This document shows, piece after piece, positions 1 through 36,949 of a DNA stretch of 36,949 nt (positions are counted from its first letter, which is position 1; each line of letters opens with the position of its first letter). This stretch comes from a virus. The stretch spans positions 1-36,949 of the IMG/VR virus record IMGVR_UViG_3300037486_000319. One strand, given 5' to 3'. The notes below the pieces were generated by a model. That model had not been told where the DNA came from. It did not search any database and saw only the letters and a list, made by a program, of their open reading frames with translations. Made by a program: the position numbers and the translations under genes.

Positions 1-756
1 AACCCTCGTATGGTCTGAAGCGCTAACTGGAGCTGCAACGATAGCGCATCAAGCAAATGAATCAGCTTGCAAGTTCTCAACCTCTGCTGCAAATGGAGAT
101 AAGGCGACACGCTCCAGCAAAAAGCTATCTCTCTATACACCTGGAACTTCTATATTAGGGTTCTTCACTGGGATCATGGGTGTAGGAGCTGCCAATTCGA
201 GCCAACGGATAGGTCTATTCAGCGCCAATGATGGGGTATTTTTTGAGCAAAAAAACAAGGTAATGGGTATTGTTATTCGTACCTCTGTAACGGGATCTGT
301 CGTCAATAACAGGGTTGATATATCAGGATGGAATATCGACTGTTTCGATGGTGCCGGACCATCTGGAGTTCTGCTTGATTTTACCAAAACTCAGATATTC
401 TGGATCGACCTTGAATGGCTCGGTGTAGGTCGAGTTCGCTTTGGTTTCGTGCATGAAGGAAAGATCTACGTTGCTCATGAGTGCTATCATAATAATCAGC
501 TAACAACTGTATACATGAAATCACCTATACTGCCCGTAACCTACGAAGTCGAAAATACTGCTGCGAGCACTGCGCTAACAGACTTCCGGCAGATATGTTG
601 CTCCGTGATAGTTGAGGGAAGCGAAACCACTTCAAGGATCCCTCGCACGATAAGCAATGGAGGTACTGCAAGGGCAACGACTACAACGACTGGTATTCCC
701 CTCATCTCGCTGAAGCTTCAGACAGCAAATATTGGCACCGCTATGCTGAAACCTAT
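1..756 (+). other. Dangling left arm of the contig (foreign or variant sequence)
   Basis: This stretch has no counterpart at the right end, although the following 118 bases do. It encodes only part of a phage structural protein, open at the left edge and cut at 756. In a closed circle it would be excluded. It may come from a related phage in the sample or from a real alternative arrangement. It is translated in the same frame as the synthase downstream. Confidence 0.6.
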
Positions 757-1549
757 TAGAAATATTCGTTCTACCAATAAACCCTATATGCAAAGGAATA
801 TTGTGCAGTTTATAGCAGACCTATCGTTAAATTGGCAAGGGTTAGATCAGATAAAAGACATGATCCAACTGCTCGATGCGCATATTGTAAAATTTCAGCT
901 CTACAGCGAGTATGATTTATACGGTTCAGGCAGCAGGGAAAGCAAGTTCAGGACTGAATGGCTCCCACAGATATACGAGTTCTGCAAGCTGCATAAAAAG
1001 AAGATGATGGTCACGGTTTTTAACCCTGATATGATCAAGGTTGTAGAGCCGTATGTACCAATGTTTAAAATAGCATCGAGCGAGATCACGGACCGAGAAC
1101 TGATCAACAAAATAAAAACATACAAAAAGCCTGTCATGATCTCGTGTGGGGGAGCAACCCGAGCGCAGATCGGTACTGCAGTTACAGTGCTCAATGAGTT
1201 GCAGATCGTGCTTATGGCTTGCAATGTAGAGTACCCGAGCAAGCGTCATAACGTGAGAAAGATGCTTCATCTTAGGAACGAATTTAAGCAGTGCTCGCAC
1301 GGTTATTCTGATCATTCTCTGGATATCGAGTGCATGCCTATTCTGTGCGAATGGTACGGTGCCAAGTTCCTAGAAAAACATGTTAAGCCGAATGAAGATA
1401 ACAGCGAATATGAGGCTCATGCGCTCACGGTTTCAGAGTTCAATGAAATGGTCGATGCCGTGAATGGTGTCGTTATGCCTGAAAAGAAAAACCCTCATCA
1501 ACGGTTCTATAATGACGAACTAAAGCGATGGGTGAGACCACGTGTCTGA
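2..1549 (+). CDS. Apparent in-frame fusion: phage structural protein fragment joined to NeuB-like nonulosonic acid synthase (left-partial)
   Basis: The frame is open to the left edge; the first ATG is at 176 but homology-like sequence starts upstream of it, so the true start is missing. Residues encoded by about 130-756 resemble a conserved phage tail/virion protein (motifs FFEQ, TKTQIFWIDLEWLGVGRVRFGF, VYMKSPILP). From 757 on the frame is a NeuB/PseI/LegI-type synthase, which condenses phosphoenolpyruvate with a six-carbon amino sugar to give a nine-carbon acid. Visible motifs are IVKFQ, KIASSEI, PVMISCGGAT, CNVEYPS, GYSDHS and EKHVKP; the last two carry the histidines that bind metal in NeuB. 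The C-terminal SAF (antifreeze-like) domain is absent. The structural part is cut mid-domain at 756, and an alternative, more natural start for the synthase lies at 36719. The fusion is therefore probably a contig artefact or strain variant. The synthase half is firm. Confidence 0.75.
   Translation, partial: TLVWSEALTGAATIAHQANESACKFSTSAANGDKATRSSKKLSLYTPGTSILGFFTGIMGVGAANSSQRIGLFSANDGVFFEQKNKVMGIVIRTSVTGSVVNNRVDISGWNIDCFDGAGPSGVLLDFTKTQIFWIDLEWLGVGRVRFGFVHEGKIYVAHECYHNNQLTTVYMKSPILPVTYEVENTAASTALTDFRQICCSVIVEGSETTSRIPRTISNGGTARATTTTTGIPLISLKLQTANIGTAMLKPIRNIRSTNKPYMQRNIVQFIADLSLNWQGLDQIKDMIQLLDAHIVKFQLYSEYDLYGSGSRESKFRTEWLPQIYEFCKLHKKKMMVTVFNPDMIKVVEPYVPMFKIASSEITDRELINKIKTYKKPVMISCGGATRAQIGTAVTVLNELQIVLMACNVEYPSKRHNVRKMLHLRNEFKQCSHGYSDHSLDIECMPILCEWYGAKFLEKHVKPNEDNSEYEAHALTVSEFNEMVDAVNGVVMPEKKNPHQRFYNDELKRWVRPRV
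757..874. repeat. 118-bp direct repeat, left copy (contig overlap)
   Basis: By eye it is identical over 118 bases to 36832-36949. The base before each copy differs (T at 756, C at 36831). The repeat lies inside the coding region for the N-terminus of the NeuB-like protein and marks the closure point of a circular or circularly permuted genome. Confidence 0.9.
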
Positions 1550-6286: not shown

Positions 6287-7210
6287 ATGGCAGTTTCAGT
6301 AGATCAGCTAACAGCGATCACTCAGCGTTTCATCATGCCTAAAATGTATGATGCAATTTTCGATACCAACCCACTTCTGAAGCGACTTCTTGCATCAGGT
6401 CAGTACAAGTCCGTGAGCGGTGGAACGTCAATTGATATTCCACTCAACTATGCACAAGTGACAGCAAGCGGCTGGTACTCTGGTGCAGATAGTCTTGATA
6501 CTTCTGAGAATGATACGATTTCTTGCGCACAGTATGCTTGGAAATCTCTGTTCGCAGGGATCACGATCACCGAGGAAGATGAACTCAAAAACGGTGGTTC
6601 TGCAGGGGTTTTGAAGCTTCTCGCTTCTAAAGCACAGATCGCAGAAAAAACAATTAAAGATCAGCTCGGCACTGGACTGTTCAGCGACGGTACAACTGCA
6701 AAGTCGATCATCGGCCTTCGTGATATTGTTGCAGTAGATCAAACCGTAGGTGGAATTTCTCAGTCAACGAACAGCTGGTGGAGTGGTATCGTCGATAGTA
6801 CAACTACGACTCAGACCATTTCAGCAATGAATGCAGTGTATGAAAATGCCAGCGTTGATAACGAAAAACCAACTGTGGGTATTGGTACAAGAACCGTTTA
6901 CACTCGCTATTACAATTTACTTCAGCCAATGCAACGATTCAGTGACAGCGATACTGCAAAAGGAGGTTTCCAGAACCTTATGTTCAATGGAATACCGATT
7001 CTTTCTGACTCACACTGTCCTGCGAATCATCTGTTTTTCTTAAACGAGAAGCATTTGTGGCTGTGCTACCACCCTGAAAGAAACTTTGCTGCTGAGCCTT
7101 TCCAAAAGCCTCTTAACCAGCAAGTAAAAGTTTCGAGAATTCTGTGGATGGGTGCTTTCGGTTCATCCAACAACAGACTTCATGGCAAGCTTTCCGGACT
7201 AACAGCTTAA
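6287..7210 (+). CDS. Major capsid protein
   Basis: A 307-residue protein with a strong ribosome site (AAGGAGCG) before ATG 6287, placed directly after the scaffold. Features resemble phage major capsid proteins of the HK97 fold: an N-terminal helix (QRFIMPKMYDAIFDTNPLL), the segment SGGTSIDIPLNYA, a central helical spine (ITEEDELKNGGSAGVLKLLASKA) and a C-terminal domain with FNGIPILSD and a LNEKHLWLCYHP strand pair. It is followed at once by a strong terminator, as expected for the most abundant product. The specific family was not verified. Confidence 0.88.
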   Translation: MAVSVDQLTAITQRFIMPKMYDAIFDTNPLLKRLLASGQYKSVSGGTSIDIPLNYAQVTASGWYSGADSLDTSENDTISCAQYAWKSLFAGITITEEDELKNGGSAGVLKLLASKAQIAEKTIKDQLGTGLFSDGTTAKSIIGLRDIVAVDQTVGGISQSTNSWWSGIVDSTTTTQTISAMNAVYENASVDNEKPTVGIGTRTVYTRYYNLLQPMQRFSDSDTAKGGFQNLMFNGIPILSDSHCPANHLFFLNEKHLWLCYHPERNFAAEPFQKPLNQQVKVSRILWMGAFGSSNNRLHGKLSGLTA

Positions 7211-7267: not shown

Positions 7268-7732
7268 ATGTCTTTTTACTCTAATACTCCAGTGATGTTC
7301 TCAGGCGTATCAGCTACGACTCTTACCCCCGGTTCTAAAGATCCAGAACTTGGCACTAGGGTCAACTATGCTGGTAATGAATATGTTTATGCATACAACG
7401 CATCCAGCGACAGTGCAATGTATCCCGGAATGGTTGGAACACCAGTTACAGGTGGTTCATCCTACAGTTTCACGATCTCGACAGCAGCGGGACTAGAAGC
7501 ACCTATGGGTGTTTGCAAAAACGCAACTTTCGCAACTGGTGCCTACGGATTCTTGCTCGTTCGGGGATATGGTACAGCATATGTCTCAGCAGCAGTTGCG
7601 GCAGGAGTAGTTCTGCAAGTTGCAGCTAACGGTATTTTTACTACAGCGGTGACATTTCCAGTAACCGCAAAGCTTATGGCTGCGACTTCAGCAGCAACCA
7701 ACGTTACAGGTTCAGCATTTTTCAGCTTTTAA
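7268..7732 (+). CDS. Putative capsid decoration protein
   Basis: A 154-residue protein with a strong ribosome site (AAAGGAG) before ATG 7268. It is rich in Ala, Gly, Ser, Thr and Val and has few charged residues, suggesting a beta-rich surface protein. The segment YNASSDSAMYPGMVGTPV is the most structured-looking part. Its place directly after the capsid terminator fits a decoration or head-stabilising protein. The many Ser/Thr residues and the neighbouring Maf-like transferase make it a candidate glycan acceptor, which is inference only. Confidence 0.7.
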   Translation: MSFYSNTPVMFSGVSATTLTPGSKDPELGTRVNYAGNEYVYAYNASSDSAMYPGMVGTPVTGGSSYSFTISTAAGLEAPMGVCKNATFATGAYGFLLVRGYGTAYVSAAVAAGVVLQVAANGIFTTAVTFPVTAKLMAATSAATNVTGSAFFSF

Positions 7733-7748: not shown

Positions 7749-8780
7749 GTGGTAAAGACAGCAAATATTCAACTTGAACTACAACCTTATATAGCAGCTC
7801 CTCCGATCACGCTGCAACAGATGTACGGAAGTGCATGCAGCTCGGATGGTGCCACGATATCGGCTTGGAAACCAAAGTGGATAGGAAATATCACTCAGAA
7901 TACTAAGAATTTCGGATCATTTGCAGCGATGGGGATAGGTCAACTATTCCAGAGTTGGCTCGGTAAACCCGTGATCATAGCAGGATCAGGACCGAGCCTC
8001 GTTCATAACATTGGAAAGTTAAAAAACAGACCAAAGTGCCTAGGACTAGTGAGCTGTTTACATAACTTTCATGCTATGGAAGATAACGATGCAGAAGTAG
8101 ACTACTACGTTACATTAGATGCAGGTCCGATTACGGTTCATGAGGTTTCTGAAGGTGGATCAAAAACACCAGACGAATATTGGACGCTCACAGCTAAGAG
8201 AAAGCTGATTGCATTCATTGGTTCTGACCCTGAGTTGCTAACGAAATGGAGGGGTGAGATCTATTTCTTTAACGCTCCGGTTCCTGATGAGAGCTACATG
8301 AAAGAGATAGCGGCAATTAACCCGATGCATCAGTACATTAGTAACGGTGGAAATGTATTGGGTGCTTGCCTATATTTCGCAAAAGGCTGGCTCGGAGCTG
8401 TGACGACAATATTCATTGGTGCTGATTTCTCTTTCAGCAATCGTGAGAAGATCAAATTTCATTATTGGGATAGCCAGTATGATGCTTCGATAGGTGAGAC
8501 TATTAGAGTGGTCGATATCTATGGAAATAGTATTCGCACATGGGGTTCCTATTACAATTTTAAGTTATGGTTTGATTATGTAACCATGGTATGCCCTGGT
8601 CACTATATCAATGCTACCGAAGGCGGCTGCTTTGGTGCGTATCGAGAAGGCAATATAATGTCGGTTCTCCAGATGGAGTTAGACAGAGTATTTGAGATGT
8701 TTAGCATCAGTGGTAAACTGCATTATAGGGCTGAAAATCCAACAGAGGCAGCATCAAATAAAGACGTTATTCTTTTTTAA
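7749..8780 (+). CDS. Maf/DUF115 (MptE-like) glycosyltransferase-like protein
   Basis: A 343-residue protein with a GTG start and ribosome site GAAAGGAA six bases upstream. It carries the DUF115/Maf signature: a Rossmann-like strand and loop PVIIAGSGPSL (residues 74-84), VDYYVTLDAGP, NGGNVLGACLYFAKGWLG (about 199-216), FIGADFSFS and INATEGG (about 286-291). Bacterial Maf proteins transfer nonulosonic acids such as pseudaminic or legionaminic acid onto flagellin Ser/Thr. The archaeal relative MptE is a pterin pyrophosphokinase, so the fold alone does not prove sugar transfer. It sits between capsid-associated genes and the same genome encodes NulO biosynthesis genes, so a virion-protein glycosyltransferase is the favoured reading. 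Confidence 0.8.
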   Translation: MVKTANIQLELQPYIAAPPITLQQMYGSACSSDGATISAWKPKWIGNITQNTKNFGSFAAMGIGQLFQSWLGKPVIIAGSGPSLVHNIGKLKNRPKCLGLVSCLHNFHAMEDNDAEVDYYVTLDAGPITVHEVSEGGSKTPDEYWTLTAKRKLIAFIGSDPELLTKWRGEIYFFNAPVPDESYMKEIAAINPMHQYISNGGNVLGACLYFAKGWLGAVTTIFIGADFSFSNREKIKFHYWDSQYDASIGETIRVVDIYGNSIRTWGSYYNFKLWFDYVTMVCPGHYINATEGGCFGAYREGNIMSVLQMELDRVFEMFSISGKLHYRAENPTEAASNKDVILF

Positions 8781-18447: not shown

Positions 18448-19581
18448 ATGGCATCACCAAGTGTAACTTATGTTTTTGTAAACGGTACAACTGCAGATGC
18501 GAACGCTGTAAATCAAAATTTCACAGACCTTATTTCAGCTATGACGGATGCCAGCAAGTCATTTTCTATTGATGCTCTCACCGTGGCAGGAGCATTAACT
18601 GCTAACGGTAATGTAACTCTCGGTAATGCAACGTCTGATTCTATCGGAGTAGTTGGATCTTTTGTTTTCAATGATGCTGGATCTGACGTAGATGCTCGAT
18701 TTGAGGGAGATACTGATGCAAATCTAATTTATGTAGATGCAAGTACTGATCGTATTGGTATTGGCACTGATACTCCAGCTACAAAATTACATATTAAAAA
18801 TGCTTCTTCTAGTGGAATTGCAACAAGAACAGAATGTATCGATGCTGCTGGTTTTGCAGCTTTTCAAGTGTACGGTAATGCTAACGTTAGTGGATTTGGA
18901 CAATTGAATAGTAGTAATTCCACCTATGGTGCGGGTTTTCAAGGATGGAGTTATTTAGGTCCAGTTACAAACACTGGATTATTATTTTTAAGAAATAATG
19001 CTGTAACAGGTTTAATAAATACATCAGATAACTGGTCATTTGGAGCAGGTTCTGGAGAATCAAATACCAAGATGTCTATTTATCAGAGTGGATCAAACTC
19101 AGGTATTCAAATAGCTCATTATGCTTCAACTAGTTCAGCAACTTTACTTTATCTAAATGCAGGTCTTGCAAGTGGAGCTTTATCATCAGGGAATTTCATT
19201 TATTGTGCTGATGGTGGAGGTGCTCAATTCAAAGTGACTGGTCAGGGCATAATTTATGCACAAAATACTACAGTTCAATCTATTTCAGATATTACGACAA
19301 AAGAAAATATCAGGGATTTAGATAAAGGACTTGATACAATTCTTGCTTTGAGACCTCGTCGTTTTGATTTTAAACCAGGATGGGGAGCTAGTCGGAAAAA
19401 TGTTATGGGTTTTATAGCTCAAGAAGCAGAAAAATTTGTTCCAGAGATCGTCGACGAGACTGAATTTAATAAAGAAACTGGTGAGAAGAAAAAAACAATT
19501 GGTACAACTGATTTAATACCTGTTGTAGTTAAAGCTATTCAAGAACTGAAAAAAGAGATTGATATTTTAAAGGCTCGTTAA
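18448..19581 (+). CDS. Tail fibre/spike with C-terminal S74 chaperone domain
   Basis: A 377-residue protein with a strong site (AGAAGGAGAATA) before ATG 18448. The N-terminus begins as many phage fibres do (SVTYVFVNGTTADANAVNQN, which binds or trimerises). The middle is a repetitive Asn/Gly/Ser-rich beta region with TLGNATSDS and DRIGIGTDTPATKLHI, typical of trimeric fibres. The end, from about residue 279, is the intramolecular chaperone autoprocessing domain (SDITTKENIRDLDKGLD, GFIAQEAEKFVPEIV, TTDLIPVVVKAIQELK). The Ser and Asp of QSISD are expected at the self-cleavage site. It is the likely host-recognition protein and the last virion gene before the sugar cassette. Confidence 0.9.
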   Translation: MASPSVTYVFVNGTTADANAVNQNFTDLISAMTDASKSFSIDALTVAGALTANGNVTLGNATSDSIGVVGSFVFNDAGSDVDARFEGDTDANLIYVDASTDRIGIGTDTPATKLHIKNASSSGIATRTECIDAAGFAAFQVYGNANVSGFGQLNSSNSTYGAGFQGWSYLGPVTNTGLLFLRNNAVTGLINTSDNWSFGAGSGESNTKMSIYQSGSNSGIQIAHYASTSSATLLYLNAGLASGALSSGNFIYCADGGGAQFKVTGQGIIYAQNTTVQSISDITTKENIRDLDKGLDTILALRPRRFDFKPGWGASRKNVMGFIAQEAEKFVPEIVDETEFNKETGEKKKTIGTTDLIPVVVKAIQELKKEIDILKAR

Positions 19582-19627: not shown

Positions 19628-20512
19628 ATGCAGAAAATTGTTGTTATCACGGGTGCTACCGGCACCCTTGGCTCCCGTCTCATGGCTTATCACGCTGCGC
19701 AGGGTGATATTATTTTTGCACTGTCTCGCTGCGATCATAAAATAAGCATGTGGCAGAAGACATTTCCACGAGTGAATTGGTGTTTAGGAGATATTAGAAA
19801 TGACCTGAACGGAGTAATTCCACCCATTGCTAATATCGTCTATCATTGCGCAGCTCTAAAACATGTTGATAAAGGTGAGATGTACCCCAACCAGTATCAT
19901 GCTGTAAACTATGAAGGTACTCTTAACGTTTTCCACCATATTAAAACTGATAAGTTTGTGTATTTTTCTACAGATAAAGCAGTGCTACCCATAAACTTCT
20001 ATGGTATGAGTAAAGGTATTGCTGAGAAACATCTTTTATCTATTAAGAAAGCTTCTAATAAGAATATCTACATATTTAGATGGGGGAATATAATTGGATC
20101 ACAGGGTTCCGCTATCCATGGATTTGTCGATTCAATTATGAATGATCGTCCAGTTTCAATAACTAATCCTAATATGACAAGATTTTGGCTTAAAATTGAA
20201 GATGCAATCAAGTTTGTTACCGACACTGTAGACAATGAAATAAGAAATAGTGTTATTAATGATGTACTGATTCATCCTCACATAAAATCTGCTCATGTAC
20301 TCGATCTCATTGCATGCATATCAAATATTTTAGGCAGAGAATATAAGTACGAAATTACTGGTGTTCGTCCAGGTGAGAAGATCCACGAGCATCTTAAAAG
20401 TGATCATGATAGCTGCCTCAGCAGTGATCAAGCTGAAAAATATACAATGGAAGAACTAAGAGAACTTATCGAGCCTACGGTTATCAAAATAGTTTCGGAG
20501 TATAAAATATGA
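19628..20512 (+). CDS. PseB-like UDP-GlcNAc 4,6-dehydratase (extended SDR)
   Basis: A 294-residue extended short-chain dehydrogenase. The NAD(P) loop is TGATGTLG (8-15). HCAALKHVD (73-81), with the downstream YEGTLNV, is the signature of the CapD/FlaA1/PseB group. STDKAVLP (114-121) and Y125GMSK129 give the catalytic Asp, Lys and Tyr. The C-terminus has GVRPGEKIHEHL, another hallmark. PseB converts UDP-GlcNAc to a 4-keto-6-deoxy sugar, the first step to pseudaminic acid; FlaA1-type paralogues serve other sugars, so the exact product is inferred. AGGA precedes the start. The stop overlaps the next gene by ATGA. Confidence 0.88.
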   Translation: MQKIVVITGATGTLGSRLMAYHAAQGDIIFALSRCDHKISMWQKTFPRVNWCLGDIRNDLNGVIPPIANIVYHCAALKHVDKGEMYPNQYHAVNYEGTLNVFHHIKTDKFVYFSTDKAVLPINFYGMSKGIAEKHLLSIKKASNKNIYIFRWGNIIGSQGSAIHGFVDSIMNDRPVSITNPNMTRFWLKIEDAIKFVTDTVDNEIRNSVINDVLIHPHIKSAHVLDLIACISNILGREYKYEITGVRPGEKIHEHLKSDHDSCLSSDQAEKYTMEELRELIEPTVIKIVSEYKI

Positions 20513-20802
20513 TTATCTTAGAAGCTGTTATCCTTGTTTTATTCATTGTCTATGTAGTGCTTTCCTTTGGTCTTTTGGTTCATTTAAATAAAAAAATTAG
20601 GTTAGCTGAAGATGACCTACAGTATTGGAAAGAGCATGCATATAAATATTTATCTGAAAGAGACGAGGCTCTAAAAAAGATTAAACATTCTGGAAATGTA
20701 ATTGAAATTCTCAGAGATATTCAACAAGGCGGTGCAGTTTTAGAAGTCATCAGGGTAGATAAGAATGACATATTTTTTCACAATGGGAGCGTGAATAGAT
20801 GA
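20509..20802 (+). CDS. Small single-pass membrane protein with coiled coil
   Basis: A 97-residue protein whose ATG overlaps the preceding stop (ATGA) and whose stop overlaps the next start (ATGA). Residues 2-25 form a membrane helix (ILEAVILVLFIVYVVLSFGL); residues 30-70 are a charged coiled coil (KIRLAEDDLQYWKEHAYKYL). No family is recognised. Tight coupling within the sugar cassette suggests a role there, for example as membrane anchor or scaffold for the enzymes, but a lysis role cannot be excluded. Confidence 0.75.
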   Translation: MIILEAVILVLFIVYVVLSFGLLVHLNKKIRLAEDDLQYWKEHAYKYLSERDEALKKIKHSGNVIEILRDIQQGGAVLEVIRVDKNDIFFHNGSVNR

Positions 20803-21395
20803 AAAAAGTCGCTGTGGTTGGTGCCAGTGGAAATATGGGACGACGCTATGCTCTTATTCTTGAGCAGCATTGCAATATTGAGGTGGTGCGAATCGAACTT
20901 GATGCCTATAAAGATCCGAAAGAATGCGATGGGATCATAATAGCTACTCCTACACCAAATCATGTTGAGATGATCAATTTTTATAGACGGTTTAATAAGC
21001 CTATTTTATGCGAAAAACCTATCTGTAAACACCTAAAAACTTTGGAAGCTATTTTGTCGATACCAGATTTAGATCTATCGATGATAAATCAGTATGAATT
21101 TCTTAATTTAGAGGATCTAGAAGGTGATACTTATTACAACTATTATAAGACAGGAAACGATAGTCTGCTGTGGGATTGCATAAACATTATTGGTTTGGCA
21201 AGGGGAAACTATAAGATAGAAAATAATTCTGTCATTTGGAGATGCGTATTAAATGGAAGATCGCTTGATCAAAGGGATATCGATTTTGCATATATTAAAA
21301 ATATCTCGGAATGGGTATGTGGCTGGAGAAATAAAGACTATATTTTAGGCGCTCATAAAAAAGTAATGGAGGTTCTTGATGGTAAAGCGAGTTAG
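20799..21395 (+). CDS. Compact Gfo/Idh/MocA-type oxidoreductase
   Basis: A 198-residue protein, clearly shorter than the 330 or more residues usual for this family. The N-terminus is a Rossmann fold (KKVAVVGASGNMGRR), then GIIIATPTPNHVEMI and the family motif CEKPI (EKP), which carries the catalytic lysine region. The C-terminal substrate domain is reduced to about 100 residues (WDCINIIGLARGN, DYILGAHKKVMEVL). Enzymes of this type occur in bacterial NulO and flagellin-glycan loci, reducing or oxidising sugar intermediates. The step here is unknown. The reading frame is intact, so it is a compact form rather than a broken gene. Confidence 0.8.
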   Translation: MKKVAVVGASGNMGRRYALILEQHCNIEVVRIELDAYKDPKECDGIIIATPTPNHVEMINFYRRFNKPILCEKPICKHLKTLEAILSIPDLDLSMINQYEFLNLEDLEGDTYYNYYKTGNDSLLWDCINIIGLARGNYKIENNSVIWRCVLNGRSLDQRDIDFAYIKNISEWVCGWRNKDYILGAHKKVMEVLDGKAS

Positions 21396-22116
21396 AAAGC
21401 GTGTTGCTATTGCTATTCAGGCTCGACTTGCATCCACTAGATTTCCTGAGAAGTCTGTAAAACCCATTTCTGAAACAGGGATGTCAAGCGTAACGAGCCT
21501 CATCCAAAATTGTAGGATTTGCGCAGATCATGTCGGGGTTAAAAGAGATCCTAATACTGATGTATCAGTCGATGTATGGGTTCTAGTTCCCGAGAATGAA
21601 CTTGAGTTCTGGAGCGAGTTTCTTGCTCATAAGCATGTACGTGTGCATGGTGGCTCGCCAACTAACGTTTTATCGAGATACACAGATCTTATGCAATATC
21701 GGTATGACTACATTATGAGGCTCACTGCAGATTGTCCTAATGTTCCAAATCTCGCTATGAATAAAGCGATCTGGACTGCAATTTATCACGATCTAGATTA
21801 TTGCTCTAACGTCTGGGAAGACTATAGAACTTGTCCGGACGGGCACGATATCGAAGTTATGTCATTTAAAGCCATGGCGTGGCTGAGTGAGAATTCTGAT
21901 CTCGATAAATACAAGGAGCATGTGACGCTCGCACTTCGTGAGATGCTGCCAAAAACTCTGCAAAAAGGATGTTTAGTTACCAAGGAAGATTTGAGCCATA
22001 TTAAACTTTGTATTGATACTGAAGATGAATACAAGCAAGCTTGCGAACGCTTTGGCTCGGCATATAAAAAACGCAAGGGAGCTATAGATAAAGGGTTATA
22101 CGTCTATGAATACTAA
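21379..22116 (+). CDS. SpsF/PseF-like cytidylyltransferase
   Basis: A 245-residue nucleotidyltransferase. ATG 21379 follows ATGGAGG (21366-21372); an in-frame TTG sits one codon upstream. Motifs of the CMP-Kdo/CMP-NeuAc synthetase (SpsF) group are visible: IAIQARLASTRFPEKSVKP at the nucleotide-binding start, HGGSPTNVLSRY, MRLTADCPNVPN, CPDGHDIEVMS and KEHVTLALRE. Such enzymes activate a nonulosonic acid as its CMP-sugar. The substrate is inferred from the NeuB-like and PseB-like genes in the same genome. It overlaps the oxidoreductase gene by 17 bases. Confidence 0.85.
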   Translation: MVKRVRKRVAIAIQARLASTRFPEKSVKPISETGMSSVTSLIQNCRICADHVGVKRDPNTDVSVDVWVLVPENELEFWSEFLAHKHVRVHGGSPTNVLSRYTDLMQYRYDYIMRLTADCPNVPNLAMNKAIWTAIYHDLDYCSNVWEDYRTCPDGHDIEVMSFKAMAWLSENSDLDKYKEHVTLALREMLPKTLQKGCLVTKEDLSHIKLCIDTEDEYKQACERFGSAYKKRKGAIDKGLYVYEY

Positions 22117-23338
22117 ATCGTGGTATGATCGGTCTCGGCAATGCATTGCGCAGGGAGCGCTAACGAACTCAAAACATCCATCTACTGATGTTTTAGGTGT
22201 ATTTCCAACTCACTTTGAAAGGGGTTATGGACCTTACCTCTATGTTGATGATAGCCATAGATATCTTGATTTTGTGGCTGGTCTTGGAGCGATTAATCTA
22301 GGTTATGGAAACGAGCAGCTTGAAACTGAAGTTGCAAAAGTGCAGCGAAATGGTGGATGCATATCTGGTAATACGCAGCAAGAAATAATTACTGCAGAGA
22401 AAGTTAAATCAGTTTTTCACTGGTGCGATAGAGTTAAATTCTTAAACGATGGGACCGAGGCATGTATGGCAGCTATTCGCATGGCTCGGGCTTTTACTGG
22501 TAAAAAGTGGGTTCTGTGGGAAGGATATCACGGTTGGTATGATGAGGCGACAGCATGGAATTCTAATGCTGTAGGAACTCCGCTTGGGCACTATTTTTTA
22601 AATCTAAATGAGTGGTTGAATAATAAAGAGTCAGATCCATGTGTATTTGATATTAGCGATATTGCAGCAATCATAGTTGAGCCAGTGATGATCGATGACT
22701 CTCGTGAAAGAATCGATTTTCTAAAAAGACTGCGTGAATTTTGCGATAGTAACAATATCATCCTCATTTTTGATGAAGTCGTCACTGGCATGCGCTATCC
22801 GTCTCTTTCAGTCGCAAAGCATTGGTCGATATATCCCGATCTGATCTGTCTCGGCAAAGCGTGTGCAAATGGGTATAAAATAGGCATGGTCGCTGGCAGG
22901 GCTGATATTCTCGACAGCAATTACTTTGTTTCTGGAACTTATTTCGGGCATATTCCCACGCTCAAAGCGACTGAAGTTTGCATGCATCTTAGCAAGCACG
23001 ATTCGAAATATAATGTCACTGATCTCAATGAAACTGCGCTTGGAATGAAAGATCGCTTTAATCTAATGGAGCCAGATATAATTAAAATGGTCGGGTGGGG
23101 AGCCAGGATGAATTTCGAAGGCTCGTGGGAGAATATCGCACTGTTTCGGCAAATCATGATCGAGGCAAGAATCTTCACAAAAACAACTTTCTTTATGAAC
23201 CATGCCACAAAGCACCATACTGAAGATTTTATCCTCGTAGCTTCATATGCGCTGCAGTCGATCAAACACGGAACGATTAAGCTGAAGGGTTCATTACCCA
23301 ATAAACCCGTCGCACAGATTGCAAGGGAGCGCTCATGA
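22106..23338 (+). CDS. Class III PLP-dependent aminotransferase (GSA aminomutase-like)
   Basis: A 410-residue full-length fold-type I enzyme. Seen: YVDDSHRYLDFVAGLGAINLGY at the start, FLNDGTEACMAAIRMARAFTG, EGYHGWYDE, AAIIVEPVM, IFDEVVTGMRY and LGKACANG, with K251 as the expected Schiff-base lysine. Homology is to glutamate-1-semialdehyde aminomutase-type enzymes, which in sugar loci act as amino transferases. Canonical pseudaminic acid synthesis uses the DegT-type PseC, so this is an unusual replacement if it serves the same step. It overlaps the cytidylyltransferase gene by 11 bases and the acetyltransferase by 4 (ATGA). Confidence 0.88.
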   Translation: MNTKSWYDRSRQCIAQGALTNSKHPSTDVLGVFPTHFERGYGPYLYVDDSHRYLDFVAGLGAINLGYGNEQLETEVAKVQRNGGCISGNTQQEIITAEKVKSVFHWCDRVKFLNDGTEACMAAIRMARAFTGKKWVLWEGYHGWYDEATAWNSNAVGTPLGHYFLNLNEWLNNKESDPCVFDISDIAAIIVEPVMIDDSRERIDFLKRLREFCDSNNIILIFDEVVTGMRYPSLSVAKHWSIYPDLICLGKACANGYKIGMVAGRADILDSNYFVSGTYFGHIPTLKATEVCMHLSKHDSKYNVTDLNETALGMKDRFNLMEPDIIKMVGWGARMNFEGSWENIALFRQIMIEARIFTKTTFFMNHATKHHTEDFILVASYALQSIKHGTIKLKGSLPNKPVAQIARERS

Positions 23339-23883
23339 TCGATTTTGGACATATGATCACTCTGGATACGCTCAACTATCCTATTACACCAATTATCAGG
23401 GAGTGGAGAAACAACTATAATATCTGGAAGTGGTGTCGGCAGAACGATCTTATCAGTCAAGATAGCCATCAAAAATGGAGCGAATCACTGAGAGACAGAA
23501 GTGATGTTAAAATGTATGCAATTAAAAACAATATAACGGTCGTTGGCGTCTGTGGTCTGACAGATATCGATAGAATCAACCAGCGAGCAGAATTCTCGCT
23601 CTATATTAATTCTGATCATCAAGGGCAGGGCTACGGCAAGTCAGCACTAAAAACACTCATTGCTCACGGTTTTATGAGTCAGAATCTAAATGTGATATGG
23701 GGTGAAACATTTGAGGGAAACCCTGCCTACGATATGTTTTTAAAACTTGGTATGAAACACGAGGGGACTCGCAGACAGTTCTATTATAAAGAAGGAAATT
23801 TCATTGACGCTCATTTGGTTTCTATAACAAAGCAAGAATATAGGGAGCAAAATTGGATAAAAACACAATGCTTGGAGCCATAA
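23335..23883 (+). CDS. GNAT N-acetyltransferase (PseH/RimJ-like)
   Basis: A 182-residue GNAT enzyme. The acetyl-CoA loop motif is HQGQGYGKSAL (Q/RxxGxG/A type), preceded by AEFSLYIN and followed by GETFEGNPAYDMFLKLGMKHEG, the end of the fold. PseH acetylates the 4-amino group of the pseudaminic precursor; RimJ-type relatives act on proteins. Clustering with the aminotransferase argues for an amino-sugar substrate. The ATG overlaps the aminotransferase stop. Confidence 0.85.
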   Translation: MIDFGHMITLDTLNYPITPIIREWRNNYNIWKWCRQNDLISQDSHQKWSESLRDRSDVKMYAIKNNITVVGVCGLTDIDRINQRAEFSLYINSDHQGQGYGKSALKTLIAHGFMSQNLNVIWGETFEGNPAYDMFLKLGMKHEGTRRQFYYKEGNFIDAHLVSITKQEYREQNWIKTQCLEP

Positions 23884-26524: not shown

Positions 26525-26880
26525 TTTTAACTCCTTATAATTAGTTTTTTAGTGGTTTTACTAATACAAAAAAACCAGTGTTTAATCAACTAATTTGTAG
26601 ACCAGACAACATAAATAAATGCACCTATGAATAAAAAGCGCATGGAGATTTTTACTCAAGGGAATTCAAAGTTGCTCGGATAAACTGTCAGGCTGAGACG
26701 CTATCCCTAGTTCGTTCAATAAACATCCGTTTAATGAAGATTGTATGGTTGTCTGAGGAGTCATACAAAGCGGTTTTTATGCCATGGGTGCCGTTGAAAT
26801 GGCAATGAGTGATCCTATGGATACTGTTTTTTAAAAAGCAGTGTTACAGCTTAATTTTAACATTATAAACGAGGTGAAAT
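26525..26880. other. Divergent intergenic regulatory region
   Basis: A 356-base gap between the leftward ERF operon and the rightward zinc-ribbon gene. It holds the candidate leftward promoter and possibly a rightward -10 TATAAA near 26867-26872. Several short overlapping open stretches are seen (an 18-codon ORF from ATG 26626, then unmarked open frames to about 26832), none with a good start, which may be a decayed small gene. No tRNA or strong hairpin is seen. Confidence 0.45.
26561..26589 (-). promoter_or_regulatory. Candidate sigma70-type promoter for the leftward early operon
   Basis: On the minus strand TTGATT is separated by 17 bases from TATTAG (each 4 of 6 matches to TTGACA and TATAAT). 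It lies 37 bases upstream of the ERF start and is followed by its ribosome site. It is plausible by spacing and place only. Confidence 0.45.
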
Positions 26881-27243
26881 ATGGATCGACCTAGAAAAAA
26901 TAAAGAAGGTAATACAGCAGACAGACCTAAATATAATACGACTGCTGTAAAATGCCCTTACTGCGATGTTATCAGCGAGCAGCGAACTCGCTTCGCATTC
27001 GGGCAAGCTATCCCAAATCTAATCGAGTGCTCGGAATGTAAAAATCATTTTATTCTGCTGCAAAAAGTTGAGATCGTGAATACCGTTGTAGACATCCAGC
27101 ACGAGTTAGATAAAGGGCTGCATCCTGAGATTCAAGCGACAACGGAAACCACGGGAGAAGCTGGTATGCGTGAGCCAGAAGCAAAAGAGCCTAGAAAGGG
27201 AAGAGCTGCAAAAACTGCGACTGATGAATATACTCCGACTTAA
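26881..27243 (+). CDS. Zinc-ribbon protein of unknown function
   Basis: A 120-residue protein with a strong ribosome site (GAGGTGA). Two CxxC pairs (CPYC near residue 25 and CSEC near residue 52) form a zinc ribbon. A helical stretch and an acidic/basic disordered tail with TETTGEAGMREPEAKEP follow. It is isolated between two leftward operons and its stop overlaps the end of the replication gene on the other strand by 4 bases. It could be an early regulator. Confidence 0.72.
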   Translation: MDRPRKNKEGNTADRPKYNTTAVKCPYCDVISEQRTRFAFGQAIPNLIECSECKNHFILLQKVEIVNTVVDIQHELDKGLHPEIQATTETTGEAGMREPEAKEPRKGRAAKTATDEYTPT

Positions 27244-28451
27244 TCAGATCTATACTCTGATTTATTTTTTTTGATTTCTTCCATTCTTCGCATTTCTTCT
27301 TCGAACATTGCGTTTGTATCGATGTACTGCGGTTCTTCTGGTTGCTCCTCAAGCAAAGGCTTTCCAATTGTAGCGAGCATATGACGCTCGACAGTATTGG
27401 GATTCCAGTTCCATACTCCGATTTCTTTCCTTTCTTTTAGGCAATCATAAAGCAACTGGAAATCAGCCAGAGAATATTTCGGCCAGAGATCATCAAATGC
27501 TTTATCCATTTGCGCATTCGTATTGCCTTTGACGAAGATACCTCTATCCCATTCCCAATCCTGCTTGATGCGACGATATGACTCCCTAAATAATCCAAGA
27601 GCCTTTTTCCTGAGAGAATTTTCCTTTGTCTTTGGATTGGGGTTTTTGGCAATTCTGGTCGATTTTATCTTAACAGGGGTATCTTTACCCTCTGTTTCAT
27701 CCTCAAGCGCTATTAAGGGGGTTATTTCGTTCCTCAGGGGGATGGAGTCAGCCGTAGGAATCTCACCGAAAATAAGATCGATTTCCCCTAACTCATCAGA
27801 ATCAGGTATGCCAATATCTATATCAGGAGCAGACGGTACGTCTGCGCTCGCCAATATATTTGTATTTAATTTATTTTTAGGGAGTTCATTAGGGAGTTGC
27901 CCGGTAACCATTACCGGAGCCTCCGGTAACCAGTACCGGACCCCTGTAAAATAGGCGCTGTAATTTTGATCGGGCTCCGGTAACCATTGCCGGACCCCTG
28001 CCAATAACGATACGGCATTACAGCAGGGCTCCGGTAATGAATGCCGGTGCCATGGGATATTGGCTGAGTTCTGCGGTATATCGTAATTGTAATAGGTATA
28101 GGACCATATTTCACTTTGCTTATCGGCATCTGAAAGGGAGTCCCAATACTCAGTAAAAACTTTGGGGGTCATTCTGTAATAGTCGGACTCTTGATTAATA
28201 TTGGAGCCTTTTTTCTTCTCTAAATATCCCTGCTCTACTAGCCAGGTAAGATTTGCCCGAACTGCCTTATCACATCTACCAGATCGCTTAACAAGACGAT
28301 GAATTGGGTAATATCTCCATTCTTGGAAATGACCCTTAAAATTGCATTCATTGCCTATAATTAATAAAATGAATTTTTGGGTTGTAGGTATGCCAGATTC
28401 GAGCACTGCGTTGAGGCATCTGCCTCCTGAATATTTTATCTTTCTACTCAT
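27240..28451 (-). CDS. Putative replication initiator with winged-helix domain (lambda O-like organisation)
   Basis: A 403-residue protein with GAGGTAA before its ATG. Residues 1-85 look like a winged helix (IPTTQKFILLIIGNECN, YYPIHRLVKRSGRCDKAV, LVEQGYLEKKKG). Residues about 115-185 form three 18-residue imperfect repeats (RHSLPEP, RQWLPEP, RYWLPEA), and the DNA encoding them holds four dyad iterons. The C-terminal region (RKKALGLFRESYRRIKQDWE to NTVERHMLATIGKPL) is helical and may recruit a host helicase or loader. The arrangement (DNA-binding domain, iterons in the linker, AT-rich tract beside them) parallels lambda O/ori. The function is inferred from architecture. Confidence 0.7.
   Translation of the reverse strand: MSRKIKYSGGRCLNAVLESGIPTTQKFILLIIGNECNFKGHFQEWRYYPIHRLVKRSGRCDKAVRANLTWLVEQGYLEKKKGSNINQESDYYRMTPKVFTEYWDSLSDADKQSEIWSYTYYNYDIPQNSANIPWHRHSLPEPCCNAVSLLAGVRQWLPEPDQNYSAYFTGVRYWLPEAPVMVTGQLPNELPKNKLNTNILASADVPSAPDIDIGIPDSDELGEIDLIFGEIPTADSIPLRNEITPLIALEDETEGKDTPVKIKSTRIAKNPNPKTKENSLRKKALGLFRESYRRIKQDWEWDRGIFVKGNTNAQMDKAFDDLWPKYSLADFQLLYDCLKERKEIGVWNWNPNTVERHMLATIGKPLLEEQPEEPQYIDTNAMFEEEMRRMEEIKKNKSEYRSD
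27853..28047. other. Candidate replication origin: four dyad iterons beside an AT-rich tract
   Basis: Four 17-bp sites of form CCGGTAAnnAnTrCCGG lie at 27901, 27923, 27977 and 28031. Each has near-perfect dyad symmetry (CCGGTAA/TTACCGG). Sites 2, 3 and 4 are spaced 54 bp apart, the period of the 18-residue protein repeat. Next to site 1, bases 27853-27879 are almost pure A+T, a candidate unwinding element, followed by two direct AGGGAGTT copies. It lies inside the initiator gene, as in lambda. Confidence 0.7.
27901..28047. repeat. Iteron set (4 x 17 bp, CCGGTAAnnAnTrCCGG)
   Basis: Copies: 27901-27917, 27923-27939, 27977-27993 and 28031-28047. Flanking sequence is partly conserved too (GGGCTCCGG before copies 3 and 4, GACCCCTG after copies 2 and 3). 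Copy 1 is followed at once by copy 2. Confidence 0.85.
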
Positions 28452-28464
28452 ATTTACCTCATAA

Positions 28465-28508
28465 AACCCGTTGCAAATTAATCTTGCATGACATAATTTG
28501 AACGGGTT
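28465..28508 (-). promoter_or_regulatory. Long imperfect inverted repeat in the leader of the replication gene
   Basis: Left arm 28465-28480 (AACCCGTTGCAAATTA) and right arm 28494-28508 (TAATTTGAACGGGTT) pair fully except for one bulged base, with a 13-base loop. It ends 14 bases upstream of the start codon at 28451. It could be an autoregulatory operator or an RNA hairpin near the ribosome site. Confidence 0.6.
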
Positions 28509-28520
28509 CGGTGGTTATCC

Positions 28521-28580
28521 GAGTTGCCGTTCTGGGTTACTGTTGAGTTACCGTTCTTTGGTTTAGTAAATTTCCGTTCA
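28521..28580. repeat. Three spaced CCGTTC direct repeats
   Basis: GAGTTGCCGTTCT (28521-28533) and GAGTTACCGTTCT (28545-28557) differ at one base; a weaker third copy TTTCCGTTCA is at 28571-28580. The CCGTTC cores are 24 and 23 bases apart, about two helical turns, a pattern typical of operator or protein-loading sites. Confidence 0.6.
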
Positions 28581-28622
28581 AAGTATTTTCTAAACCCCAT
28601 AAATTAGTTTTTAGTTCTAAAA

Positions 28623-28650
28623 AGAGGTTCCATCAAGGGATCTCTTTTTT
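28623..28650. terminator. Bidirectional rho-independent terminator
   Basis: Stem AGAGGTTCC/GGGATCTCT (9 pairs including two G-T) with loop ATCAA, flanked by A-run on the left and six T on the right. It can end transcription in both directions, isolating the replication operon from the resolvase/lysis operon. Confidence 0.75.
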
Positions 28651-28831
28651 ATTTATACCTATTATTTTTAATGCATGTATTAACTGATCTGCAACCATGT
28701 CTCCGAATATAAAAAAAATCAAGTAAAATCCCCCACTGCCAAAAAAAAATAAACATAGTTAAATAACTGAGGATATTTCTGTAAACGGAGTTTATATTCA
28801 TTTTACATAACTAAAAATATGGGGTTTTTAA

Positions 28832-29338
28832 ATGAAAAGCGTAGGTATCGATTCAGGTTCTAAAGGCTGTATTTGCGTGCTCGATACACAGGAAAAAACA
28901 GCCAAATATTTGTATTTGCCGTACAGGAAAGATGACGTTTTAAACGGCAGACTTATTGACATCACTTTCGAGTGTTTTTCGGGTGTAGATCGGATGACGC
29001 TTGAGAAGGTGCAGGGACGAGGTGGCGGAGATACAAAGTGGGGAGCAACTCAGACTTTTGGTTTTGGTCGCAATTATGGAATGATATTGATGTACCTGAG
29101 CTACTACCCACACCATTTAGTTGTACCACAAGTGTGGCAAAAGGCAGCTCATAAACTGGCTCACGGCATTACTGCGAAAGAAAAAACACAGTCAGCATTT
29201 GATCGGTTAAATCCGAGCTATGGCGGCATTGCAACAAGCGAGAACGGGCTTGCGGATGCGTTTTTTATTGCTCGATATGGGCTGGATCAGCTCGGCTGTC
29301 ACTACACAGATGACTGGAACTTTTTTAACATGAAATGA
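28832..29338 (+). CDS. RuvC-like Holliday-junction resolvase
   Basis: A 168-residue protein of the RuvC/RNase H fold. GIDSGSKGCICVLD at residues 5-18 provides the first catalytic Asp (D7), TLEKVQG a glutamate, and LADAFFIARYGLDQL the C-terminal Asp, in the usual order. Phage versions cut branched DNA before packaging or support recombination with ERF. A weak site (TGGGG) precedes the ATG. It opens the rightward operon after the terminator. Confidence 0.85.
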   Translation: MKSVGIDSGSKGCICVLDTQEKTAKYLYLPYRKDDVLNGRLIDITFECFSGVDRMTLEKVQGRGGGDTKWGATQTFGFGRNYGMILMYLSYYPHHLVVPQVWQKAAHKLAHGITAKEKTQSAFDRLNPSYGGIATSENGLADAFFIARYGLDQLGCHYTDDWNFFNMK

Positions 29339-29580: not shown

Positions 29581-30009
29581 ATGGTTGCTATGCATCGAGA
29601 TCTCAGCAAAATTAAGAAGATCATACTCCATTGCAGCGATTCGGACCTTGCTGAATTTGACAACATTGAGACGATAGAGAAGTGGCATCGACTCAAGGGA
29701 TGGTCTTCGATAGGATATCAATATTACATTGATCGCAAGGGTATTGTTTATCCGGGTAGGCCGATGGATCAAGCTGGATCCCATTGCTCGGGACATAATT
29801 TAGAGTCAATAGGAATCTGCATTGGCGGCAAGAAAGTGTTCTATGATGCACAGTTCTCAGCTCTTTGGTTTCTTATCAAGGATCTTATGATTAAGTTCAA
29901 GCTGAAAAAATCAGATGTCTATCCCCATCACTATTTCAACTGCGACAAAACTTGCCCGAATTTCGAATTATCTAAAATATGGAAATATGACAATAACGAG
30001 TATAGTTGA
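29581..30009 (+). CDS. N-acetylmuramoyl-L-alanine amidase (T7 lysozyme-like endolysin)
   Basis: A 142-residue Amidase_2/PGRP-type zinc enzyme that cuts the amide bond between muramic acid and the peptide in peptidoglycan. H17 (IILHCSDS), H116 or H117 (VYPHHYFN) and C125 (KTCPN) are the expected zinc ligands, with K123 near the active site; this spacing closely parallels T7 lysozyme H17/H122/C130. IGYQYYIDRKGIVYPGRP and HNLESIGICIGG are further family blocks. ATG 29581 is preferred; a frame extension to 29434 overlaps the previous gene. No signal peptide, so a holin would be needed. Confidence 0.92.
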   Translation: MVAMHRDLSKIKKIILHCSDSDLAEFDNIETIEKWHRLKGWSSIGYQYYIDRKGIVYPGRPMDQAGSHCSGHNLESIGICIGGKKVFYDAQFSALWFLIKDLMIKFKLKKSDVYPHHYFNCDKTCPNFELSKIWKYDNNEYS

Positions 30010-30046
30010 TATAATAACAATGGCACTCTATAAAAAAGGAGGTTTT

Positions 30047-31249
30047 ATGAGCAAGCTATTCTCGTTTTTGTTTCCGTTTTTAACAGTTTTTTTATTTTCA
30101 TGTTCTCACGTCGATCCTAAAGAAATTCCTGTCATCTCTACTAACCCAATTCCGATGAATGCCGTCATTTCATCATCAGGTAAATTGTTTTACACAGGTC
30201 TTAAAATACCCCAAGGTTTTAAGCCTAAAAATGTCAGACCAGCTTATGTTAAAGGTGAAGAACTTCCAGCAGCTTTCGACTGGCGTGATAAAGTTGAACT
30301 CATGCCAATTAGGTCGCAAGGAAGTTGTGGCTCCTGTTGGAGTTTTAGTACAGTGGCCACATTCGAGGATTCACGCAGAATTCAAGGCGAGAAAGAAGAT
30401 CTTAGCGAGCAGTATTTGGTGTCATGCAACAATGAAGGTTGGTCGTGTAACGGTGGGTTTTTTGCTTATGACTATATGATGGCACCAAAGGGTGGGATAT
30501 CAGAGGCGAGTTATCCTTATACTGCGACTGATTCAGCATGTAAAGGAGGTTTAAACTACGGTGCAAAAATTAAATCGTGGGCTTATCTTCCCGGTGGAGA
30601 TAACGCAGGAGATAACATAAATGAGATGAAAGCAGCTATTTTTAAGTATGGTCCTATAGGCGTGGGAGTCGCTGTAGATTCAAATTTTTCAAATTATTCA
30701 GGTGGTATTTTTAAAGATACTGGATATCGATCACTCAACCATGCAGTCAATATTGTTGGATGGAATGATGCAGAAGGTGGTTACTGGATAATGCGAAATT
30801 CGTGGGGAAATTGGGGCGAAAATGGCTTCATGAGGATTGCCTACAAAGCTAACGGCATCGGTGCGTGGAGCAATTATGTCGTGTATGAAAAAGATCCTAA
30901 TCCTAATCCAGATCCAACTCCAGATCCGAAACCAAATCCAGATCCACAACCTTGTTCTCCAAAACCTTATGCTGATACTGGTTATGGCGACTCTATTACA
31001 GTGAAAAATGGTGCAAGTATTTTGATGGGAACTAAGCCTCGTGCCGGTCATCGTTATTACTGGACAGCATCTCCAGCTTTCGATAACGGAGCGGTTCCTC
31101 AAGAAGCGCAGATCAAGTACAAACCTCGTGTTACAAAACGCTTAACAGTTCATGCTGTAACTCAGTGCGGAGAAGCGACAGATTCAGTTACCGTTAAACT
31201 ACTATCTGGATATTTAGATAGCAGTAAAGTGGTTCCTGAGTTAGATTAA
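30047..31249 (+). CDS. Papain-like (C1A) cysteine protease lipoprotein
   Basis: A 400-residue protein with a very strong ribosome site (AAAAAAGGAGG). Residues 1-18 are a signal peptide; LFSC at 16-19 is a lipobox-like end, so Cys19 may be lipid-modified. The C1A core is intact: LPAAFDWR, Q91 and nucleophile C97 in SQGSCGSCWSF, then CNGGF, His232 in LNHAVNIVGW and Asn251 in RNSWGNWGENG. A Pro-Asp/Asn linker follows, then a roughly 85-residue beta-rich domain. There is little propeptide. Such enzymes are rare in phages. It could degrade host or prey periplasmic proteins or act in lysis. An upstream frame extension from 29915 is rejected. Confidence 0.9.
   Translation: MSKLFSFLFPFLTVFLFSCSHVDPKEIPVISTNPIPMNAVISSSGKLFYTGLKIPQGFKPKNVRPAYVKGEELPAAFDWRDKVELMPIRSQGSCGSCWSFSTVATFEDSRRIQGEKEDLSEQYLVSCNNEGWSCNGGFFAYDYMMAPKGGISEASYPYTATDSACKGGLNYGAKIKSWAYLPGGDNAGDNINEMKAAIFKYGPIGVGVAVDSNFSNYSGGIFKDTGYRSLNHAVNIVGWNDAEGGYWIMRNSWGNWGENGFMRIAYKANGIGAWSNYVVYEKDPNPNPDPTPDPKPNPDPQPCSPKPYADTGYGDSITVKNGASILMGTKPRAGHRYYWTASPAFDNGAVPQEAQIKYKPRVTKRLTVHAVTQCGEATDSVTVKLLSGYLDSSKVVPELD
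30893..30951 (+). repeat. Pro-Asx linker repeat in the papain-like gene
   Basis: Tandem imperfect AATCCA/GATCC units encode alternating Pro with Asn, Asp, Thr or Lys, a flexible linker between catalytic and C-terminal domains. Such short repeats can change length by slippage. Confidence 0.8.
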
Positions 31250-36747: not shown

Positions 36748-36949
36748 TCGTCAGTACAATAGCTATGATGAGACATCTCGTGGTGATGAACTCAAGAATA
36801 GCCTTGTCTTGGGACGAGGCTATTCGTTTACTAGAAATATTCGTTCTACCAATAAACCCTATATGCAAAGGAATATTGTGCAGTTTATAGCAGACCTATC
36901 GTTAAATTGGCAAGGGTTAGATCAGATAAAAGACATGATCCAACTGCTC
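36719..36949 (+). CDS. NeuB-like nonulosonic acid synthase, N-terminal part (continues at 875 on circular closure)
   Basis: ATG 36719 follows AAGAGGATGA and overlaps terS by 29 bases in another frame. The first 38 residues (MAVTPATIADRQYNS...) are not found at the left end; from residue 39 (RNIRSTNKPYMQRN) the sequence is the same as in the 2-1549 frame. Joined through the 118-bp overlap, the protein would have about 301 residues with all NeuB motifs and no SAF domain. This is the likelier natural form. Right-partial in this window. Confidence 0.85.
   Translation, partial: MAVTPATIADRQYNSYDETSRGDELKNSLVLGRGYSFTRNIRSTNKPYMQRNIVQFIADLSLNWQGLDQIKDMIQLL
36832..36949. repeat. 118-bp direct repeat, right copy (contig overlap)
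   Basis: Identical by eye to 757-874. It ends exactly at the window edge, as an assembly overlap would. Together they indicate a circular map of 36,075 bp (757-36831). Confidence 0.9.

Follow-up and report, generated by a model that had tools for sequence, protein, structure and literature searches.

Nonulosonic acids are known as glycosylation of bacterial flagellin, capsule, lipopolysaccharide (LPS) and spores. The closest described pathway is the PseB-PseC-PseH-PseG-PseI-PseF route to pseudaminic acid in Campylobacter, Helicobacter and Aeromonas. Known Maf enzymes transfer a nonulosonic acid from cytidine monophosphate (CMP) to Ser/Thr of flagellin and accept several CMP-sugars, and their PF01973 domain resembles the sialyltransferase Cst-II (PMC11339370). 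Among phage-borne genes, EpaA of Acinetobacter prophages combines an aldo-keto reductase with a cytidylyltransferase-type domain (CTP_transf_3) in one fusion protein (PMC12053666), and mycobacteriophage virions carry glycans on capsid and tail-tube proteins (Freeman 2023, cited in PMC12619734). The window analyzed here is the whole of the viral IMG/VR record IMGVR_UViG_3300037486_000319 (36,949 nt). It contains a cassette of nonulosonic-acid type at 19628–23883, a gene for a NeuB-type synthase about 18 kb from the cassette, and a gene for a Maf-like transferase that immediately follows those for the capsid and the putative decoration protein. The preferred reading, to which we assign a probability of roughly one-half, is that the phage makes its own CMP-nonulosonate, most likely of the pseudaminic type, and attaches it to proteins of its virion by means of the Maf-like transferase.

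The phage is a member of an uncultured clade of ~34–40-kb phages, and all genomes compared are metagenomic. The clade was annotated by scoring 25 contigs with profiles grown from window proteins; a second set of contigs was picked by the major capsid protein alone, and a third by a search with the class III aminotransferase (AT3) of the cassette.

The Biosynthetic Cassette

The cassette comprises six open reading frames (ORFs) with 4-nt ATGA-type overlaps at 20509, 20799 and 23335, and GGAG-type ribosome sites precede several of the starts. A promoter scan of the cassette gave no more matches than were found in shuffles. The features are as follows.

19628..20512, + strand: short, inverting-type UDP-GlcNAc 4,6-dehydratase of the PseB/FlaA1 type (PF02719 1.8e-51; 2gn4 7.8e-80)
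20509..20802, + strand: 97-aa small ORF whose N terminus includes a hydrophobic segment (in 20/25 contigs)
20799..21395, + strand: short Gfo/Idh/MocA oxidoreductase, 198 aa (PF01408 6.4e-9)
21376..22116, + strand: SpsF-type cytidylyltransferase, predicted CMP-sugar synthetase (6oew 3e-12; AlphaFold2 model, mean predicted local distance difference test score (pLDDT) 95)
22106..23338, + strand: AT3, a class III (GSA-like) pyridoxal phosphate (PLP) aminotransferase of a NeuB/SpsF-linked family (PF00202 3e-31)
23335..23883, + strand: PseH-like GNAT acetyltransferase (TIGR03585 PseH 2.9e-21)

The original prediction, made from the sequence alone, had proposed these five enzyme families in an overlapping operon, and all five hold by profile, solved-structure or fold search. 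It had passed over the small ORF at 20509–20802, which lies ahead of the enzymes in most clade members, has a conserved C-terminal motif (GGA...DIFFHNG) and gave no Pfam or PHROG match. The closest solved structure to the clade profile of the dehydratase is 2gn4 (FlaA1/PseB), and the Thr115-Asp116-Lys117 sequence and the Tyr125..Lys129 pair of the short form (TDK, Tyr-x3-Lys) are invariant in 19 homologues. The Cys-Glu-Lys-Pro motif of the oxidoreductase is invariant in 11 aligned homologues, but the gene is absent from two of the closest relatives, G001 and G002; it is a dispensable accessory step, and the step is probably one of tailoring. The SpsF-type protein of the window is weak in Pfam (2.5e-4), whereas a profile of four homologues matches 6oew at 2e-22 and 19/19 homologues match PF02348. 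The nearest Foldseek matches of its model are 6oew and the CMP-KDO, CMP-NeuAc and CMP-Pse synthetases, which points to a CMP-sugar synthetase with a predicted substrate. Lys251 of AT3 is invariant in 16 homologues. TIGR03585 (PseH) matches 17/17 homologues of the GNAT protein, and solved spermidine acetyltransferases outscore PseH for this protein. PHROGs contain no family for the Maf-like protein, the SpsF-type protein, the oxidoreductase or the small ORF.

The NeuB Gene and the Ends of the Window

The synthase gene lies at the other end of the record, where it is affected by a repeat.

755..1549, + strand: NeuB/PseI-type nonulosonate synthase without an SAF domain (PF03102 3e-37); the true 5' end is within the contig-end repeat
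36829..36949, + strand: contig-end repeat of 754–874, comprising the upstream end and the start of NeuB (99.2% over 121 bp)

The best profiles and solved relatives of NeuB are pseudaminic and sialic acid synthases, far above the DAHP synthases (NCBIfam PseI 1.4e-30; clade profile against the pseudaminic acid synthase 8h2c 1e-57), and the synthase active site, Lys46-x-Gln48, Lys105, Ser-Asp-His187 and Glu207-Lys-His209, is conserved in 22 homologues. NeuB of the window subclade keeps the lysines, the SDH and the EKH of this site and ends in a terminal Arg-Pro; on one reading of the sequence alignment, this arginine may correspond to the one described for the SAF domain of NeuB.

NeuB had originally been placed between terS and terL. 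The gene is present there, but a structural gene intervenes, and the ORF at 176–1549 is partly artefact. Its first ~198 residues match a head-structure family (phrog_1645), to whose gene positions 1–753 of the window belong. In relatives, terS is followed by three separate genes in a row, namely the structural gene (~420 aa), NeuB and terL; because the structural gene is complete between terS and NeuB in these contigs, the true order is terS, structural gene, NeuB, terL. A fusion of NeuB to a structural protein was therefore rejected as a contig-end artefact, given the end repeat and the separate genes in relatives. At either contig end, a piece of apparently one structural gene has been joined ahead of NeuB at an identical position, and the ends of the window look like an artefact or a strain mixture that produces a false fusion ORF.

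The Maf-like Gene beside the Capsid Gene

The Maf-like gene, which had also been left out of the original prediction, is the third of the following features; the other three encode candidate acceptors.

6287..7210, + strand: major capsid protein, candidate acceptor (NF033394 9e-78, exceeding the cut-off)
7268..7732, + strand: small conserved protein, putative decoration protein and candidate acceptor (25/25 contigs; 23% Ser+Thr)
7749..8780, + strand: Maf/MptE-like protein, 343 aa, predicted nonulosonic-acid glycosyltransferase (PF01973 6e-18)
18448..19581, + strand: tail fibre with S74 chaperone domain, candidate acceptor (PF13884 1.1e-12; PHROG tail fibre 2e-22; synteny)

PF01973 was found in 22/22 aligned homologues of the Maf-like protein. 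Its AlphaFold2 model (pLDDT 91) has as its best Foldseek match 5mu5, the Maf protein of Magnetospirillum (2.6e-9; template modeling (TM) score 0.50), so that a PF01973 domain with a Maf/sialyltransferase-like fold is predicted. The match covers 290 alignment columns, and the N- and C-terminal domains that flank it in Maf are absent (343 residues as compared with 632 for 5mu5 in the fold library and 666 in its sequence). The BFVD database holds further MptE-like models from uncultured phages, and a PF01973-type domain as such is therefore not new to phages. Of the contigs selected by the capsid protein, 76 extend far enough to show this neighbourhood, and each of them has the Maf-like gene behind the capsid gene. 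Because the gene adjoins the capsid gene, the virion is a likelier target than the host surface, and it is from this position that we infer virion proteins as acceptors. The putative decoration protein gave no PHROG match. The capsid protein of the window belongs to a podovirus-type family (NF033394), with the best isolate match only ~30% identical.

Conservation across the Clade

The typical gene order in the clade is NeuB, terL, portal, scaffold, major capsid protein, decoration protein and Maf, followed further on by the adaptor and, further still, by the S74 tail fibre, the small ORF, PseB, Gfo, SpsF, AT3 and GNAT. NeuB is present in 23 of the 25 contigs and adjoins terL in most. The cassette or a remnant of it is found in 20/20 contigs that span the locus, nearly always behind the tail-fibre gene, which is its upstream neighbour across the clade, and AT3 is present in all 20, in one of them (G022) as a degenerate copy. 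A further 13 long contigs contain AT3 in 11 cases and NeuB in 9. The search with AT3 gave 43 contigs of the same cassette type, in which SpsF (43), GNAT (40), Gfo (37) and PseB (35) are found; because the same order recurs in dozens of related contigs, the arrangement is not due to chance. The distances computed for cassette genes track those of four core phage genes (Mantel r 0.40–0.82), and the phage AT3 sequences form one clade against 34 mostly cellular rows, with 100% support in the Shimodaira-Hasegawa-like approximate likelihood ratio test (SH-aLRT). The cassette is a core trait of the clade, and both its co-divergence with the core genes and the single clade of phage AT3 proteins fit a long vertical residence. 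A recently acquired accessory island was considered and rejected, because the cassette or what is left of it was seen in every contig that spans the locus and because of the co-divergence with core genes.

Three observations link the distant NeuB gene to the cassette. (i) In contig G022, NeuB, PseB, Gfo, SpsF and GNAT have all been lost, and only a degenerate AT3 without the catalytic PLP lysine is left. (ii) In G023, the PseB gene adjoins NeuB. (iii) In another viral lineage, 11 contigs have NeuB, PseB, AT3, GNAT and SpsF together in that order, several of them near the portal and capsid genes; none of these fragments yielded a DegT gene. The joint loss, the PseB-NeuB pair and the joined cluster argue that NeuB belongs with the cassette. 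Larger phages have PseB-AT3 with NeuB, SpsF and formyltransferase-type genes, and the biosynthetic genes recur in other viral contigs that seem to represent at least two further lineages.

Contigs of the second lineage include L406, L408, L410, L411, L416, L419, L421, L425 and L430; in L419, an SU10-type adaptor gene precedes the cluster. Separately, contig L287 (LSSJ01000028.1), which has been binned to a euryarchaeal metagenome-assembled genome, looks viral. It has, in order, a glycosyltransferase-like gene, Gfo, SpsF, PseB, AT3, a dTDP-glucose-dehydratase-like gene and an ORF that resembles a head-tail adaptor, the last identified by eye.

The Aminotransferase Family in Cellular Genomes

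A first scan of GTDB with four phage aminotransferases gave no match, and the scan succeeded only once cellular sequences had joined the alignment. Among the best 80 cellular relatives of AT3, NeuB is encoded within 8 kb in 66 and SpsF in 65, which ties the family to nonulosonic-acid genes in cellular genomes. Two contexts are seen. The first is that of pseudaminic clusters with pseB, pseC, an aldo-keto reductase, SpsF, AT3, pseG and pseI, in which AT3 is fused in Pseudosulfitobacter. The second, in Bacteroidota, Ignavibacteriota and others (L288–L366), has the order SpsF, transketolase N, transketolase C, AT3, short-chain dehydrogenase/reductase, NeuB and HAD phosphatase and is probably an uncharacterized nonulosonate-like pathway. 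A haloarchaeal plasmid has Gfo-SpsF-AT3 in the same order as the phage. We know of no reaction that has been assigned to the AT3 and SpsF families beside NeuB in environmental bacteria. In the phage, PseB, AT3 and GNAT follow the order of PseB, PseC and PseH. AT3 probably stands in for PseC, because it occupies the PseC position and no DegT aminotransferase was found in the clade of the window.

Proposed Pathway and Alternatives

The assignment of the cassette to nonulosonic-acid metabolism in the original prediction is borne out by NeuB, which is nearest to pseudaminic and sialic acid synthases, by the CMP-sugar-synthetase fold of the SpsF-type protein and by the dehydratase, which is nearest to FlaA1/PseB. 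That prediction was to be given up if NeuB or SpsF fell into other families, and the comparison of structures and profiles instead favours the nonulosonic-acid families. Support is good for the class of the pathway and weaker for the exact sugar. In the proposed sequence, the PseB-like dehydratase would convert UDP-GlcNAc of the host to a 4-keto-6-deoxy-L sugar, AT3 may aminate the keto sugar in place of PseC, and the PseH-like GNAT protein would acetylate the amino sugar. Because the phage encodes no PseG, a host PseG-like enzyme is proposed that would remove UDP. NeuB would then condense the hexose with phosphoenolpyruvate, the SpsF-like enzyme would activate the nine-carbon acid with cytidine triphosphate, and the Maf-like protein may transfer the sugar to Ser/Thr residues, the acceptor being the capsid, decoration or fibre protein. 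Co-inheritance, motifs, folds and family membership come from the data described above; the chemistry of the dehydratase, PseH-like, NeuB and SpsF-like steps is drawn from knowledge of the families. The sugar appears to be of the pseudaminic type, which is favoured over legionaminic acid with moderate confidence because the dehydratase has the short FlaA1/PseB form and its best solved match is 2gn4; a legionaminic or sialic product is less likely.

Several observations weigh against this reading. Single-sequence searches of the 25 contigs gave neither a DegT-type PseC nor a PseG homologue, and the earlier statement that nearly all steps are encoded is not supported, on this account and because the oxidoreductase is missing in two of the closest relatives. 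Weak PseG matches fall on the GNAT ORFs and can be traced to a PseG query of greater length, which has a match of its own to the GNAT profile. The best NCBIfam model for the dehydratase is PseB, but the score (144 bits) is under its equivalog cut-off, and the best for the GNAT protein is PseH, with 76 bits as compared with a cut-off of 93. NeuB of the window subclade is without the C-terminal SAF domain, which is retained in most of the clade, and the window protein has aspartate at the position that in most members is occupied by the N-terminal AE-motif glutamate; G002 has no NeuB. After 5mu5, the Foldseek matches of the Maf-like model are archaeal HPPK/MptE (8sd5, 2.8e-4) and human ST8SiaIII (5e-4); the HPPK/MptE fold is not closer than that of Maf, and the TM-scores are modest for both. 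In G022, an intact-looking gene for the Maf-like protein remains although the cassette is gone; a host-made donor or another activity may therefore be conceivable. Cellular pseudaminic clusters, such as L189, hold a related AT3 alongside PseC, so that another reaction there, or a tailoring role, has to be considered.

The last point leads to an alternative in which the oxidoreductase, AT3, GNAT and SpsF modify and activate a nonulosonic acid made by the host, with no synthesis de novo, for example with an amino group and an acyl group added at a side-chain carbon before activation of the modified sugar. The cellular clusters with AT3 that also hold PseC and an aldo-keto reductase (L322, L332, L364 and L189), the action of EpaA/EpaB on C8 of pseudaminic acid (PMC12053666) and the lack of PseC and PseG in the 25 contigs are in keeping with such a module. 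However, nearly every member encodes PseB and NeuB, for which tailoring by itself would have no use, and AT3 persists in G001 and G002 where the oxidoreductase is missing; we regard this explanation as improbable. The same sugar could instead be destined for LPS, capsule or flagellin of the host and block superinfection or receptor rebinding, as the prophage genes epaA/epaB change pseudaminic acid in the Acinetobacter host capsule (PMC12053666), and the position of the Maf-like gene among late genes could simply set the time of its expression. The transferase is nevertheless inside the head-gene block in all 76 contigs, no O-antigen-type transferase is adjacent to it, and no integrase or repressor was recognized among the genes searched, which were part of the window ORFs. 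Known Maf enzymes modify protein before export and not LPS (PMC4065374; PMC11339370). A host-surface role is unlikely, though it deserves more weight than tailoring.

Finally, the NeuB-, SpsF- and MptE-like proteins could make another CMP-keto sugar or serve DNA or cofactor modification. The MptE-like fold is common to HPPK and the window has a Mom-like DNA-modification gene, but within the set of 25 contigs that gene (family g35562) was recovered from the window alone, and NeuB stands far from the DAHP synthases; such a product is very improbable. We retain the reading in which the nonulosonate is made by the phage and placed on its virion. Its fuller form, that a clade-core pathway of the pseudaminic type, with AT3 for PseC and a dedicated Maf-like transferase encoded beside the capsid gene, gives particles coated with self-made nonulosonic acid, is a tentative proposal that falls a little short of even odds.

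Other Features of the Window

Cultured-phage records contain no Maf-like or SpsF-like protein and one remote match to NeuB, and therefore yield no clue to host or phenotype; a tRNA search for a host clue also gave none. At 34991–36323, a ParB-N-domain protein is followed by the Mom-like protein (phrog_1384, 8e-52). A cysteine protease of the papain family (C1; 2e-50) is encoded at 29915–31249, and from its sequence it seems to have a signal of the lipoprotein type. The protease gene, which is unusual for a small phage, is also found in G001, G002, G005 and G031 and possibly has a role in lysis or release. The terL ORFs of G001 (26869–29154) and G006 (31072–33348) are ~760 aa long and contain an extra internal intein-like segment, whereas terL of the window is uninterrupted.

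Comparison with Known Systems

Each element of the system has a known relative. In the literature covered, which included few subscription papers, no description was found of phages with a clade-core nonulosonic-acid pathway and a Maf-like transferase gene next to the capsid gene. With the cellular pseudaminic pathway, the phage shares the FlaA1-type dehydratase, the PseH-like GNAT protein, NeuB/PseI and the CMP-sugar synthetase, co-inherited. It differs in having a class III and not a DegT aminotransferase, no PseG, an SpsF-type protein in place of PseF and, often, an additional Gfo/Idh oxidoreductase, and in that the genes are split over two phage loci. The sps operon of Bacillus subtilis, which gives legionaminic acid on spores, likewise has SpsE (NeuB) and SpsF homologues in one pathway (PMC7439481). 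It differs from the phage in its SpsG and its legionaminic product. The SpsC aminotransferase of that operon is of the DegT type.

Bacterial Maf flagellin glycosyltransferases (Maf_flag10, PF01973; 5mu5, CbMaf) share with the phage protein the PF01973 domain, the best fold match and the co-occurrence with a nonulosonic-acid cassette. The phage protein is smaller and lacks the flanking domains, its gene adjoins a capsid gene with no flagellin, and in one clade member it persists in the absence of the cassette. EpaA/EpaB resemble the cassette in being a phage-borne cytidylyltransferase domain and oxidoreductases for pseudaminic acid but are accessory prophage genes that tailor the host capsule, with no NeuB, PseB or aminotransferase, and are not a core phage trait (PMC12053666). 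What mycobacteriophages have in common with the proposed system is the presence of glycans on capsid and tail-tube proteins. To our knowledge, neither a phage-made nonulosonic acid nor a Maf-type enzyme has been reported in mycobacteriophages.

If the proposal is correct, it would offer a testable reason for glycosylation, namely a shield against antibodies, lectins, proteases or host receptors, together with a tool for protein glycosylation whose acceptor is not flagellin, and it would help to assign a role to the class III aminotransferase and SpsF families that lie beside NeuB in environmental bacteria. The clade would then join the nonulosonic glycosylation known from bacterial surfaces and spores to the glycosylated particles known from mycobacteriophages.

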